DNA from: Cognatundibacterium curvum
GTDB taxonomy: Bacteria > Pseudomonadota > Gammaproteobacteria > Burkholderiales > Burkholderiaceae_D
Reading direction: 5' to 3'
Assembly (NCBI RefSeq): GCF_014284235.1
Contig: NZ_JACOGD010000002.1
Coordinates: 248,001 to 312,000 of the forward strand
Length of the DNA stretch: 64,000 nucleotides
The position numbers and the translations under genes were made by a program. This document shows, piece after piece, positions 23,686-29,807 of this stretch. Within the stretch, counting starts at the first letter, position 1. Each line of letters opens with the position of its first letter. The notes under the pieces are model-generated. The model made no database searches, was not told the DNA's origin, and saw only the letters and a list, made by a program, of their open reading frames with translations.

Positions 23686-23754
23686 ACGGTTTATCTTTCT
23701 TGAACCATCACAGTTTTAATTTAATTCATATATTTGCTTAACTACAGGTGCTCC

Positions 23755-26193
23755 ATGGCAACTTTCTTCCGGTTCTTGACGGGTTTATTTTTATCAGCCT
23801 TCCTGGCTGCATGCGGCGGCGGCGGCGGTTCAGCCGGGAATAATGGTAGCGGTGGAGCTAATGTGCCTTTGTTCACGAGTTCGCCAACCTCTATCAGTCT
23901 GATCCCCGGAGAGACTGCGACCTACACTATTGGTGGCGGTACGCCAAACTATATTGCAGCAGCTGGAAATTCAGCCGTATTGGTGAGCGTTAAGGATAAG
24001 ACCTTGTCCATAACCGCCGTTGCAAGCGGTACCTCTACTGTGACGGTGACGGACAATGTAGGTGCAAAACTGTCGATTTCTGTCAATATTGGCACCGGCA
24101 TCCCATTGTTTACAACAGCACCAAGCAGTGTGAATATCGGTGTAGGTAGCCGCACCTCTTCATTCATCATTGGTGGTGGTAGTGCAGTCTATGCGGTCAG
24201 TGTAGATAATCCTTCTATTGCTGCCGTAAGCAGCGTTGGGAACCAATTTTCCGTCATTGGATTGGCTAACGGCAGCGCGGTTGTGAATGTAGTCGATTCC
24301 TTAGGTGCATCTGTCAAAATTAGCGTACTGGTCGGTTCCGCGACTGCAGTAACCGGTGAATTGGTGACCACTGCACCTGCTACAGTAAAACTCGGTGTCA
24401 GCAGCTCCTCGACCTTCACCATTTCAGGTGGTACAGCTCCTTATTTCGCAGGTAGTGGCGACAATACGGTAGCTACGGCAACGGTTGTTGGCAATATTCT
24501 TACCATTAACGGTATCGCAAACGGGAACACAACAGTTAAGGTTCAGGACTCGAACAGTAAATCGGTAACAATCAGTATGCAGGTTGGTAATGCGCTCGGA
24601 TTGTTCTCCTCTGCGCCTTCTGATATTACTGTTGGGACGGGTGCTAACTCGCCGGCATTTACTATTGGCGGCGGTACGCCTCCCTATTCTGTCGTTGCGG
24701 CGAATTCGTTGATTGCGACCGCAGCTATGTCTGCAAGTGGAAACAACTTTATTGTCACTGGTGTTTCTGCAGGTTCAACCATCGTGACCTTAAAAGACAG
24801 TGTCGGTGCTCCGCTTGCTATCAATGTAACGGTCAGTGGTGGTACGTCTGCTCCATTGTTCACAACGGCGCCAAGCGCGATCACTCTGCAGTCCGGTTTG
24901 AGCGCATCTTATACCGTTGGCGGTGGTGTGCCGAAGTATGATGCAACCAGCAGTAATCCTGCCGTATTGAGCGCAGTCCAGACAGGTACGGATCTGACCT
25001 TGAAAGCACTGTCTGCTGGTACCGCAAACGTGGTTATTTCTGATTCTAAAGGAACGCGTCTTGGTGATATCGTTGTCACGGTTTCCGGTGGTACTACTTC
25101 AAATTTATTCTCGACAGCACCGTCTACTGTAGCGATGGCAATTGGTGCGAGCCCAAGCTACTCTATTTCCGGCGGTGTCGCTCCATATACCGTAATCAGT
25201 AGCAATCTTGGTGTGGTATCTGTCGCACCGGTATTCCCATTGACTACAAACTCCATTTTCACCTTGACGGGTGTTGGTGCCGGATCTGGTTCTATCCGGA
25301 TTACTGACAGCGTTGGTACTAAGCTTGATATTGCGGTTAATGTCACAGGTAGCTCGACGGTTGATCTGGCAACTTCTGCGCCTGCAACTGTTAATCTCGG
25401 TGTGGCCGCAAATGTGAATTACAGTATTATTGGTGGCGTTGGGCCTTACTTTATTGAGCCAGGCGATAAAACACTGGTCAATATCACGAGACCTTCAACC
25501 AATACCTTCCAGTTGACGGGTGTTGCAGCTGGCTCAACCAAAATCTTTATTTCTGATAGTGCTGGCAAGAAAATATTATTCGACGTTGTCGTTCTGGCTG
25601 CAACGAGTCAGGCTATGGTAGTTTCGCCAAATAGTGTTTCCTTAGCCAATGTAGGAGATGTATTGTATTTCCGTGTGGATGGTGGAAATCCACCATACAC
25701 CGTGATTTCGAACAATCCTGCCGCTATTTCGATCACGAGTGGCACTGTACTTAGCTCTTCGGGTGTATTTACTGCCTACATGGCCAATACCGGTACCGCC
25801 GTCAGTATTGTTGTTTCTGATTCGAAAGGCGTTACCCAGACAGTTTCTATCGCAAGTATTACTGCGGCGACCGGCGGCATGTTCCTTACACCGCAAAAAT
25901 GGTCGATAGACGAAACCAACAATGTGGCAGTTACCCTGACTCTGACGGGTGGGGTCGCACCTTACCAGGTGTTTAATAGCAGCACTCTATTGGCCAGCGT
26001 TGTGGCCACCACAAATGGTACACCTTCGAATCTTTTCTTTAATGATCGCATCCTTACTGTGAACGTCGGTACACAGGGGACTCGCTGTGTCAATGGCAAT
26101 CAGGCAGTAACATTTACTGTGGTGGATAGTCTGAACAGGACGACTACAAGTACAATGACGATCGTTGATCGTAATGGCGGTGCCGGTTGCTGA
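23755..26193 (+). CDS. Large lipoprotein of nine Ig-like repeats, unknown function
   Basis: An 812-residue precursor: signal peptide with lipobox FLAAC, a glycine run (CGGGGGS) and a Gly/Asn/Ser spacer, then nine repeats of 79–104 residues starting near residues 39, 118, 203, 283, 368, 451, 538, 621 and 709. Each opens with L-F-T-x-A-P-S or similar, has a GG-x-P-Y motif in the middle and ends with V-x-V-x-D-S-x-G. This fits bacterial Ig-like (BIg2-like) all-beta modules. Repeat 9 is longest and ends in Cys, with a second Cys (TRCVNG) that could form a disulfide. It sits between pilQ and aroKB, 69 bases after pilQ. A surface or periplasmic binding or pilus-linked role is inference. Confidence 0.8.
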   Translation: MATFFRFLTGLFLSAFLAACGGGGGSAGNNGSGGANVPLFTSSPTSISLIPGETATYTIGGGTPNYIAAAGNSAVLVSVKDKTLSITAVASGTSTVTVTDNVGAKLSISVNIGTGIPLFTTAPSSVNIGVGSRTSSFIIGGGSAVYAVSVDNPSIAAVSSVGNQFSVIGLANGSAVVNVVDSLGASVKISVLVGSATAVTGELVTTAPATVKLGVSSSSTFTISGGTAPYFAGSGDNTVATATVVGNILTINGIANGNTTVKVQDSNSKSVTISMQVGNALGLFSSAPSDITVGTGANSPAFTIGGGTPPYSVVAANSLIATAAMSASGNNFIVTGVSAGSTIVTLKDSVGAPLAINVTVSGGTSAPLFTTAPSAITLQSGLSASYTVGGGVPKYDATSSNPAVLSAVQTGTDLTLKALSAGTANVVISDSKGTRLGDIVVTVSGGTTSNLFSTAPSTVAMAIGASPSYSISGGVAPYTVISSNLGVVSVAPVFPLTTNSIFTLTGVGAGSGSIRITDSVGTKLDIAVNVTGSSTVDLATSAPATVNLGVAANVNYSIIGGVGPYFIEPGDKTLVNITRPSTNTFQLTGVAAGSTKIFISDSAGKKILFDVVVLAATSQAMVVSPNSVSLANVGDVLYFRVDGGNPPYTVISNNPAAISITSGTVLSSSGVFTAYMANTGTAVSIVVSDSKGVTQTVSIASITAATGGMFLTPQKWSIDETNNVAVTLTLTGGVAPYQVFNSSTLLASVVATTNGTPSNLFFNDRILTVNVGTQGTRCVNGNQAVTFTVVDSLNRTTTSTMTIVDRNGGAGC

Positions 26194-26258
26194 TGTCTGT
26201 AGCATGAAAAGTGACAAATCAGTTTTCTGGCAACTCCAGTAAAAGCCAGGAAACTGCA

Positions 26259-27935
26259 ATGTCAGGTAATATCTTTTTAGTAGGATTAATGGGCTCCGGT
26301 AAGACCACAGTCGGCCGGGCCCTGGCAAAAAAACTCAATAAACGCTTTATTGATTCAGACCATGAAATCGAGGCGCGAACTGGCGTCTCGATTCCTGTCA
26401 TTTTTGAGATTGAAGGCGAAGCCAGTTTTCGGCAGCGTGAAGCTGACGTCATACGTGATCTGACCGCGCAAGATAACATCATCCTTGCTACCGGTGGTGG
26501 CGCGATTCTGAACCCCGAAAGCCGGCGTTTGCTGGAGCAACGCGGCACAGTAATTTATCTGCGTGCCAGCGTACACAGCATTTTGCAACGTACCCGTAAC
26601 GATAAGAACCGACCTCTGTTACGTACAGCTGATCCACGTAAAAAACTGGAAGAGCTGGAGGCGCAACGCCATCCCCTGTATCAGGAAATTGCCGACGTAG
26701 TGATAGAAACCGGTCGCCCGAACGTGCAGCATCTGGTACAACATATTCTTGATAAACTTCCATCCCAGATTCCCGATGTGCCGCAACAGGCGGTTCCAGT
26801 TATGAATAATTCTGTATCACCTAAAATATCTGCTTTGAACGGCAACACTGGCATCCAAACCTTGCATGTTAATCTGGGTGAGCGTAGCTACCCGATATAC
26901 ATTGGTCAACAACTGCTGAATGACAGCACGCTCCTGACGCAAGCGATACCAGCAAAGCGCGTGGTGATTGTGACTAATACTGTCGTTGCACCACTGTATC
27001 TGTCAGCTTTGCAGCAGCAACTGCAGGATATCGGTAAGACCGTGTCTGCTGTGATTCTGCCGGATGGAGAAGAGCATAAGCACTGGGCTACCCTGATGCA
27101 GATTTTTGATCATTTGCTGGAACAAAAATGTGACCGGAAAACTTATCTGGTCGCTTTGGGTGGTGGCGTGATTGGTGATATGACGGGATTTGCCGCTTCA
27201 GCCTTTATGCGCGGTGTTCCTTTCGTGCAGATACCGACCACTTTACTGTCACAGGTGGATTCATCTGTGGGAGGTAAAACCGGTATCAATCATCCGCTGG
27301 GCAAAAACATGATAGGTGCGTTTTATCAGCCACAAGCGGTGCTAGCCGATACAGCGACACTGAATACCTTGCCGGACAAAGAATTGTCCGCCGGACTCGC
27401 CGAAGTCATTAAACACGGCGCGATTATTGATACGGACTTTTTTGTCTGGATAGAAAAAAATATTCAGGCATTGCGCGCCAAAGATCCGGCCGCACTCGCT
27501 TATGCCGTAGCGCGTTCTTGCGAAATCAAAGCTGACGTAGTGCGTCAGGATGAGCGCGAAGGTGGTTTGCGTGCCATACTGAATTTTGGTCACACTTTTG
27601 GTCATGCGATTGAATCTGGCATGGGTTATGGTAACTGGCTGCATGGCGAGGCAGTAGGTTGTGGCATGGTGATGGCAGCAGATTTATCTTGTCGTCTGGG
27701 TTATCTGGACTTTGTGTCACGGACCCGGATTAAGCAATTGGTGGAAGATGCAGGCTTGCCGGTCACCGCACCTGATTTAGGAACAGAACGCTGGCTGGAT
27801 TTGATGGAGGTCGATAAGAAAAATGAAGGAGGGCAGATCAAGTTCATACTGCTCAAGCCCCTTGGCAGCGCTCATATTACATCTGCACCCAAGGACAAAT
27901 TATTAGAAACTTTAAGTCATAGTATTCTGCCCTGA
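26259..27935 (+). CDS. aroKB: Bifunctional shikimate kinase / 3-dehydroquinate synthase (AroK–AroB fusion)
   Basis: One 558-residue frame carries two shikimate-pathway enzymes normally made from adjacent genes. Residues 1–175 are shikimate kinase: Walker [23 protein letters not shown] and the lid [10 protein letters not shown]. Residues 176–205 form a Pro/Gln/Asn-rich linker. From about 206 on is dehydroquinate synthase: [18 protein letters not shown] site [15 protein letters not shown], and the zinc ligands in AEVIKHG and GHTFGHAIE. The ATG at 26259 follows AGGA. Inside the linker an ATG at 26802 is preceded by AGGCGG at 8 bases, so a separate AroB could also be made. No frameshift is evident. 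Confidence 0.95.
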
Positions 27936-27937
27936 CG

Positions 27938-29080
27938 ATGATGTTTTCCGACACGCATTTAGCTTCCTATGCCGCCCAGTCTGCGAGTTCGCGAGGGCGG
28001 CTTTTTATTGAGCCGGGTTCCGATACGCGCAGCCAGTTCCAGCGTGACCGCGATCGCATCATCCATTGCTCTGCTTTTCGCCGCTTGGAATACAAGACCC
28101 AGGTATTTGTGAATCATGAAGGGGATTTATTCCGCACCCGTCTCACCCATAGTCTGGAGGTGGCTCAGATTGGCCGCTCTATCGCACGAAATTTACGTTT
28201 AAATGAAGATTTGGTCGAGGCCATCGCACTGGCGCATGATCTGGGGCATACGCCTTTCGGGCATGCTGGCCAGGATGCCTTAAATAGCTGTATGCAGGAT
28301 TATGGTGGCTTCGAACATAATCTGCAGAGTTTGCGTATCGTTGATGCGCTGGAAGAGCGTTATGCGGCGTTTAATGGCTTGAATTTGTGCTTTGAGACGC
28401 GCGAAGGCATACTCAAGCATTGCTCGCTCACGAATGCACAACAACTCGGCGACCTGGGTTTGCGTTTCATCGAAAAAACGCAGCCCTCACTGGAAGCGCA
28501 ATTGACGAATCTGGCAGATGAGATTGCATACAATAATCACGATATTGACGATGGAATACGTTCAAATTTATTAAGTGAGCAGCAGATGATGCAAGTCAGC
28601 CTATATGCGCAGCATCGTCAAATAGTGGAAACGATGTATCCTGGAATTCAAGGCAGGCGCGCTATCTCTGAGACGATACGACGCATGATCAATACGCTGA
28701 TTACGGATCTGATCTCGACCTCGCAGGCGCGTATTCTGGATGTGATGCCAAAAACGATAGATGATGTCAGAGCTGCGCCAAAACTGATCGCATTCTCTGA
28801 TGTGGTACACGTACAGGCCAGCGAGTTGAAGCATTTTTTATTTCAGCACTTGTATCGCCACTATCAGGTGAATCGCATGACCTCGAAAGCACGTCGCGTG
28901 GTGCGTGAATTGTTTGATGCCTTGATGCAGGAACCTGGTTTGCTGCCGCCTGATTATCAGATTCAGCGCAAAGATGATATGCAAGCACAGGCCAGAAAAA
29001 TTGCTGATTATATTGCCGGTATGACCGACCGCTATGCGATGCGCGAACATCGTCGTTTATTCTCTATCCATGAAAGTTAA
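27938..29080 (+). CDS. dgt: Deoxyguanosinetriphosphate triphosphohydrolase-like protein
   Basis: HD-superfamily enzyme that hydrolyses dNTPs to nucleosides and triphosphate. The 380-residue protein has the metal-binding pattern [17 protein letters not shown] and [16 protein letters not shown] (the HD pair), a further Asp in [17 protein letters not shown], and the N-terminal [21 protein letters not shown] typical of the type 2 dGTPase-like subgroup. It starts 2 bases after aroKB stops, so the two are coupled. Whether dGTP is preferred cannot be read from sequence. Confidence 0.93.
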
Positions 29081-29093
29081 TGCAGGAGTCACT

Positions 29094-29807
29094 ATGAATC
29101 TGTTTTCAAATACCAATTCAAAAAAATCTGTGAAAGCCTTATTTACGACCAGCCTGCTGGCTGTAAGCTTCAGCGTCAGCGCACTGTCGTTAAGCGATCT
29201 GAGTAATCAGGATGCGAGTACCGGGCTGAAGGCCGCACTGGATAAGGGCTCGGTGGCTGCAGTTGCTAAGCTGGGCGTGGAGAACGGATTTTTGAATAAC
29301 GATAAAGTCAAAATTCAATTGCCAGGTTTATTGGAACAAGCCAGACCGATACTGAAGATGACAGGCAAAGGCCAGCAATTAGATGAACTCGTCGTTTCTA
29401 TGAACCGTGCGGCTGAAGCGGCAGTTCCTATGGCAAAACCCTTGCTGGTGAATGCAGTCAAATCGATGACGCTGACTGATGCGAAAAACATTTTGACCGG
29501 TGGTGAAACATCGGTGACTGACTTCTTTAAACAAAAAACTGCCTCACCGCTGACGCAGCAATTCCGCCCTATTGTGAAAGGTGTTACCGATAAAGCGGGA
29601 TTGTCAGCGAAATATAATAGTGTAATGGGCCAGGCGCAAAAGTTTGGCGCGGTATCTGAGCAGGAAGCAACAGTCGAAGGCTATGTCACGCAAAAAGCAT
29701 TGGACGGTTTGTATCTGATGATCGCTGAAGAAGAAAAGGCGATACGTCAGGATCCACTGGGTGCAGGCAGTAAAGCGATCAGCAAAGTATTTAGTCTGCT
29801 CAAATAA
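29094..29807 (+). CDS. DUF4197 exported protein
   Basis: A 237-residue protein with a signal peptide ending near SVSA/LSLSDLS, matching the DUF4197 family: a mostly helical domain with LSNQDASTGLKAALDKGS at the start of the mature protein, and ALDGLYLMIAEEEKAIRQDPLGAGSKAISKVF at the end. The function of the family is unknown to me. A strong AGGAG site sets the ATG at 29094; it begins 13 bases after dgt stops and is likely cotranscribed with it. Confidence 0.85.
   Translation: MNLFSNTNSKKSVKALFTTSLLAVSFSVSALSLSDLSNQDASTGLKAALDKGSVAAVAKLGVENGFLNNDKVKIQLPGLLEQARPILKMTGKGQQLDELVVSMNRAAEAAVPMAKPLLVNAVKSMTLTDAKNILTGGETSVTDFFKQKTASPLTQQFRPIVKGVTDKAGLSAKYNSVMGQAQKFGAVSEQEATVEGYVTQKALDGLYLMIAEEEKAIRQDPLGAGSKAISKVFSLLK

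Follow-up and report, generated by a model that had tools for sequence, protein, structure and literature searches.

An AroK-AroB fusion maintained across the Oxalobacteraceae, with a probable internal AroB start in its linker

Shikimate kinase (AroK) and 3-dehydroquinate synthase (AroB) are encoded by a single open frame in the window, our term for the whole 64,000-nucleotide stretch of DNA analysed here, and an in-frame ATG lies in the linker between the two enzymes. A gene fusion is commonly taken to mean that two proteins have given way to one. Here the gene may make only the fusion or also a free AroB. The comparison of related genomes suggested to us, with a probability of roughly 0.8, that the AroK-AroB fusion of this family keeps a working internal AroB start in its linker. 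The case hints at a long-lived state in which a single frame retains both kinds of product.

The fused gene and its relatives

Translation of the aroKB frame (Table 1) yields 558 residues followed by a stop, with no internal stop, and both parts score above the cut-offs of their profiles, so that a first description of this locus from its letters alone (the sequence-only reading) was right to place a complete AroK and a complete AroB in one protein. The AroB part covers positions 1-341 of the 344 in TIGR01357, and the AroK part aligns to NF003456 over residues 4-167 (196.5 bits against a cut-off of 195, model positions 6-170 of 173); the cut-off for SKI, which also identifies the AroK part, is 22.1. 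Within the AroB part, Pfam places DHQ_synthase at residues 265-377 and DHQS_C at 379-522. In a 32-sequence alignment the P-loop residues G9, G12, G14, K15, and T16 are invariant, as are three residues of the AroB part that are presumed zinc ligands, E382, H445, and H462. An AlphaFold2 model built from this alignment contains two well-predicted parts (mean pLDDT 84.5, pTM 0.62). The pLDDT falls below 50 in the linker and in a shorter stretch inside AroB (residues 335-341), in keeping with a flexible tether between the two enzymes. The linker contains Met182, which is encoded by the in-frame ATG at 26802, and the motif AGGCGG ends 8 bases before this codon, as had been noted from the letters.

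Table 1. Features of the aroKB locus, in window coordinates
Feature	Position	Strand	Basis or remark
Fused aroKB frame, 558 aa	26259-27935	+	Stop-free frame; both domain profiles
Shikimate kinase domain, residues 11-167	26289-26759	+	Pfam SKI, 188.1 bits
Disordered linker, residues 170-196	26766-26846	+	pLDDT <50; hypervariable across the GTDB family
AGGCGG, Shine-Dalgarno-like	26788-26793	+	Duplex -7.0 kcal/mol; species-specific, not conserved
Linker ATG, proposed start of free AroB (26802-27935, 377 aa)	26802-26804	+	Family-wide conservation and mRNA opening, the latter not significant in the window gene alone
3-Dehydroquinate synthase domain, residues 211-550	26889-27908	+	TIGR01357, 399.9 bits, cut-off 305
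HD-domain phosphohydrolase	27938-29080	+	Pfam HD and HD_assoc

The aroKB gene is the sole match to the fusion protein in its own genome (E ≤ 0.001) and, being the only match to either enzyme, should supply both steps. Two bases separate its stop from the ATG of the HD-domain gene, presumably dgt-like, and the two genes probably belong to one operon. Upstream, the window encodes an 819-residue protein (23734-26193) that is apparently built from repeated segments and in which Pfam recognizes only T2SS-T3SS_pil_N, in two stretches. On the other side lies a DUF4197 protein (29034-29807), the longest frame of which shares bases with the end of the HD-domain gene. An Rfam search of window positions 25500-28500 returned no match.

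Fusions of shikimate-pathway enzymes have precedents. The pentafunctional AROM polypeptide unites five enzymes in a single eukaryotic protein; the AroB part matches 6hqv and 7u5s. Closer in design are the bifunctional AroKB families NF010627 (PRK14021) and NF010556 (PRK13951) of NCBIfam, which we take to come from Bifidobacterium and Thermotoga and which likewise have AroK ahead of AroB in a single chain. The alignment to NF010627 spans residues 6-548 of the window protein, but the scores of 328.4 bits for NF010627 (cut-off 565) and 268.2 bits for NF010556 (cut-off 560) indicate a shared architecture rather than membership. Since the Oxalobacteraceae fusion sits beside relatives with separate genes, it probably originated independently of these two. 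In Burkholderia, Paraburkholderia, Cupriavidus, and Variovorax, aroK and aroB have the same order, orientation, and domains as the window gene, but in the named loci a stop or a frame change parts them. For B. cenocepacia, one report gives BCAL0279 and BCAL0280 as aroKB and BCAL0279 as aroK (PMC12013268).

Spread and history of the fusion

The host genus is Undibacterium, and its GTDB family corresponds essentially to the Oxalobacteraceae, with a few of the deep-branching genera of split type placed uncertainly in it. We searched 227 family genomes, 43 from the genus itself and 195 from a family set, with 11 shared between them. Five have no match and one has a fragment only, which leaves 221 with a readable junction. 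The gene is fused in 180 of these and split in 41, and by genus it is fused in 30 of 43 and split in 13. This breadth bears on a statement of the sequence-only reading, which had also proposed the check within the Oxalobacteraceae, that in most related bacteria aroK and aroB are two neighbouring genes: this is true of the wider order and not of the gene's own family. By single-match counting, which can miss fusions with long or unlike linkers, one stop-free match spans both domains in 5 of the 145 genomes sampled from the order outside the family and in none of the 149 other genomes sampled from the class; in at least one genome of the class sample (G434) both matches lie within a single 625-codon open frame.

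The 180 fused genomes comprise 179 loci that read stop-free from AroK into AroB and one genome (G144) whose stop-free match begins in AroK, crosses the linker, and reaches residue 341, with a frame break inside AroB; this locus (L242) was counted as the 180th and left out of the 179 analysed below. One split genome (G075) and the fragment (G104) were classed from the match table, not from DNA. Two loci were dropped, L229 because it comes from the same genome as L071 and L076 because its stretch holds no AroK match, and five fused loci from outside the family (L057, L062-L064, and L066) were removed from the family counts. Among 80 named relatives, 15 were fused by our script and one more (L256) on inspection, the script having called it split solely from its terminal stop; 14 of these 16 bear the names of family genera or of the family itself. 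Of the other two, one record (L259, G132:C8) is titled as an Alistipes senegalensis MAG yet carries an aroKB of the Oxalobacteraceae type, and its name is probably wrong. The second is an uncultured Alcaligenaceae bacterium (L284); its AroK-AroB fusion and those of the five loci from other families of the order are perhaps independent, and all six have a Met a few codons from the AroB domain.

A sequencing or assembly error that hides a stop or frameshift between two ordinary genes, a concern raised when the locus was first described, would be a trivial explanation of the single frame. All 41 of the 43 genomes in the host genus that have a match (two have none) are stop-free across the junction, as are the 179 fused loci from 30 genera, and the excess of third-position mismatches upstream of the ATG described below points the same way. 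Nothing was found in favour of such an error, and we regard it as excluded by these comparisons.

Trees were computed from up to two or three genomes per genus (88 rows), together with a 69-row version that omits seven deep-branching split genera and most outgroups. One supported core clade unites the fused genera with five split ones (g5, g24, g25, g31, and g41), and the remaining split genera sampled from the family lie outside it, as does the Burkholderia group. The best tree implies 7 state changes among the 69 rows. The AU test does not reject a tree that gathers all fused core rows into a single clade (p-AU 0.30), and the gene may have fused once and then been re-split several times. For g25, and for no fewer than three of the six g31 genomes sampled, one or two stops upstream of an ATG are all that interrupts the frame through the linker (L081-L084).

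The linker ATG and the signals around it

The linkers of the 179 fused loci are 16 to 76 codons long and can barely be aligned between genera. Nevertheless, 177 of the 179 genomes and all 30 fused genera have an in-frame ATG there (exactly one in 146 genomes), where the Met content of the domains would lead one to expect 88; the other two linker frames contain an ATG in 73 and 18 of the 179. The two genomes in which it is missing (L213 and L220) are assemblies 87 and 83% complete. At other positions up to 12 codons from the ATG, the commonest residue reaches a frequency of at most 0.40 among 30 genus representatives, which leaves the ATG as a conserved in-frame internal start codon in an otherwise poorly conserved stretch. 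What follows it (MNEQ, MNQ, MTQ, or MSS) resembles the AroB N-terminus of split relatives: linker ATGs and split aroB starts alike are often followed by N, S, T, P, or Q as the second residue, and control ATGs by A, R, I, or V. In a subclade of g12, the genus that includes Massilia sp. CF038, six loci (L126, L129, L132, L136, L143, and L146) seem to have lost the usual ATG, with Ile, Asn, or Ser in its place, and to have a different in-frame ATG, some 10 codons or more further upstream.

We then compared the predicted structure of each mRNA with that of synonymously recoded versions, in which the protein is fixed and codons are drawn from the gene's own usage. Loci with too little flanking DNA were left out, so that 176 or 177 of the 179 were used, and the duplicate of L035 (G035:C93) was also excluded. 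At the linker ATG the observed mRNA is less structured than its recoded versions by 3.31 ± 0.16 kcal/mol (176 loci). This opening is maximal from 0 to +15 and amounts to 0.15 kcal/mol at +45 and -0.88 at -45. Averaged by genus, with the proviso that kinship makes the genera less than fully independent of one another, it is 2.99 kcal/mol and positive in 28 of 30 (Wilcoxon 2.6e-8), slightly negative in the other two, and -0.23 at -60. Comparison with the recoded versions thus shows a codon choice that appears to be selected across the family to open the mRNA at this ATG, and at the family level unstructured mRNA provides an initiation signal beyond the start codon itself. The host genus follows the trend (2.64 kcal/mol over 40 Undibacterium loci). 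For the aroKB of the window taken alone the opening is not significant, since 66% of its recodings match the observed openness.

An open stretch in a linker might instead be caused by the edge of the AroB domain, or the Met and the unstructured mRNA might serve some other end, such as a translation pause or co-translational folding between the two domains. The loci differ in the distance between ATG and AroB domain (groups of 74, 52, 29, 12, and 9 loci). With the ATG 0-18 nt from AroB (74 loci), the peak of the opening falls between -6 and 0 relative to the domain edge; with the ATG 61-120 nt away (9 loci), the opening occupies roughly -72 to -18, and only 0.64 is left at the edge itself. For the 12 loci at 46-60 nt the peak is flatter and weaker. 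A further 31 linkers contain several ATGs, and among these the last one before AroB is open (2.9), unlike the first (0.59). In both comparisons the opening goes with the ATG, and we disfavour the domain edge as its cause. A role in pausing or folding is made quite unlikely by this tracking of the ATG, by the preference for the ATG nearest AroB over other linker ATGs, and by second codons that resemble those of split aroB starts, even though GC3 around the ATG is below expectation and other linker positions retain some opening: opening at a gene's own ATG offset is 2.99, compared with 1.33 at the offsets of other species that still fall within the linker, and the own value exceeds the other in 20 of the 30 genera (p = 0.0008). 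In 13 long linkers the highest opening is again at 0 to +30 of the ATG (3.7-3.8), together with 2.0-2.1 at -135 and -120. The six g12 loci are open at 0 to +30 of their upstream ATG (2.9-3.8) and also at -60 (4.3) and -75 (3.2), and the subclade is therefore not clean support for an opening linked to the ATG.

The sequence-only reading had taken the AGGCGG as the mark of the start, and this did not survive comparison. Its duplex is the strongest of five Undibacterium loci examined, but the motif is absent from the two closest relatives, which share 95 and 94% identity (duplex -3.6 kcal/mol). Over the family, Shine-Dalgarno pairing at the linker ATG is 0.26 kcal/mol weaker than in recoded versions and is also weaker than at other in-frame ATGs (-1.72 versus about -3.44 and -3.34), and we reject it as a conserved signal. 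As a positive control we used the aroB starts of 38 split family genomes, which have a similar profile (SD -2.12, MFE -4.34 kcal/mol) to the linker ATG (MFE -2.77 kcal/mol), whereas control in-frame ATGs have MFE values of -11.95 (1489 sites in the AroB part, SD about -3.45) and -10.57 (316 sites). The aroK starts could be placed in only 62 of the 179 fused genomes. In the window species the site may lean on its Shine-Dalgarno sequence more than on openness. Initiation at unstructured AUGs that have no Shine-Dalgarno sequence is documented (PMC3121790).

With the signals in hand, two further explanations can be weighed. The lack of a conserved Shine-Dalgarno sequence and the absence of significant opening in the window gene would both suit an ATG that is a functionless relic of the pre-fusion aroB start in a gene that makes only the fusion. 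A relic, however, should decay like its neighbours; the retention of this codon in a linker near-randomised between genera speaks against such a history, as does the codon choice that opens the mRNA in 28 of 30 genera, and we regard it as unlikely. Free AroB could also be made from an mRNA of its own, leaderless or short and beginning within the linker, which again would need no Shine-Dalgarno sequence. The hexamer TANNNT precedes the ATG, between -14 and -5, in 9 of 177 cases compared with 747 of 27398 control sites, an excess of about twofold that rests on 9 cases, and a scan for one promoter type found 0 sigma-70-like sites in window positions 26100-28100 (2.3 in shuffles); we think this origin very improbable.

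Two products from one frame

The stretch from the kinase to the ATG is coding only in the fusion, and it carries information on whether the fusion is made. In 47 close pairs, mismatches at the three codon positions number 169, 147, and 275 (1161 codons, p = 5e-11), and 36 gap-free pairs of equal length give 93, 86, and 178 (p = 3e-10). This third-position excess indicates that the fusion product is made and loosely constrained. In a plain nucleotide alignment of the 47 close fused pairs, 22 of 45 linker gaps are multiples of three; the control for this count consists of only 2 close split pairs, and since whole linker lengths are in frame by definition, the count favours neither side.

Given the kept ATG, the codon choice that opens the mRNA, and the coding constraint before the ATG, both the fusion and free AroB look to be under selection, and free AroB is probably made in the cell, a possibility that the sequence-only reading had raised. 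We propose that ribosomes starting at 26259 would make bifunctional AroKB and that others starting at the ATG at 26802 would make a free AroB of 377 residues in the same frame, with internal initiation across the family depending on an unstructured mRNA stretch instead of a strong Shine-Dalgarno sequence. AroB acts as a dimer, and free AroB could join AroKB in mixed dimers. The purpose may be an excess of AroB over AroK, a stoichiometric reading in which we have less confidence than in the internal start; the enzyme balance suggested as a reason by the sequence-only reading is plausible. If the internal start is live, a stop in the linker could re-split the gene without loss, and the linker stops seen in some genera are suggestive of this. 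Taken as a whole, the scheme in which aroKB of the core Oxalobacteraceae gives AroKB and free AroB from a Shine-Dalgarno-independent start, mixed dimers hold fewer kinase than synthase subunits, and linker stops can re-split the gene losslessly is tentative, and we would put it a little short of even odds.

As a fusion the gene is ordinary; what is unusual is that fusion and internal start both appear to be maintained throughout the family. Fused AroKB proteins and internal starts are each known separately, and a limited literature search found no report of the two together. The same limited search, which included parts of PMC12013268 and PMC3018139, found neither the aroKB fusion in Oxalobacteraceae nor an internal start therein. 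Internal starts are described for infB, cheA, and ccmM, where one frame with two starts gives a short form that lacks the N-terminal part (PMC11005335), and for lysA of phage Ms6, where an in-frame internal start gives a long and a short protein (PMC3111421). The aroKB gene differs from all four in that its short form would be a complete enzyme and its long form a fusion of two enzymes, and it differs from Ms6 lysA also in that the latter has a consensus ribosome-binding site (PMC3111421), which is not conserved in aroKB. The test used here, in which codon choice under a fixed protein is asked to open the mRNA at an internal ATG, needs only sequence and can be applied to other fused genes, for which annotation as one protein may overlook a free enzyme.

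A second AroB-like protein, 35-37% identical, is present in seven Undibacterium genomes of 5.9-6.7 Mb (G009, G014, G020, G021, G025, G028, and G042) and also in G035, an assembly with 9% contamination. It is perhaps a secondary-metabolite cyclase.
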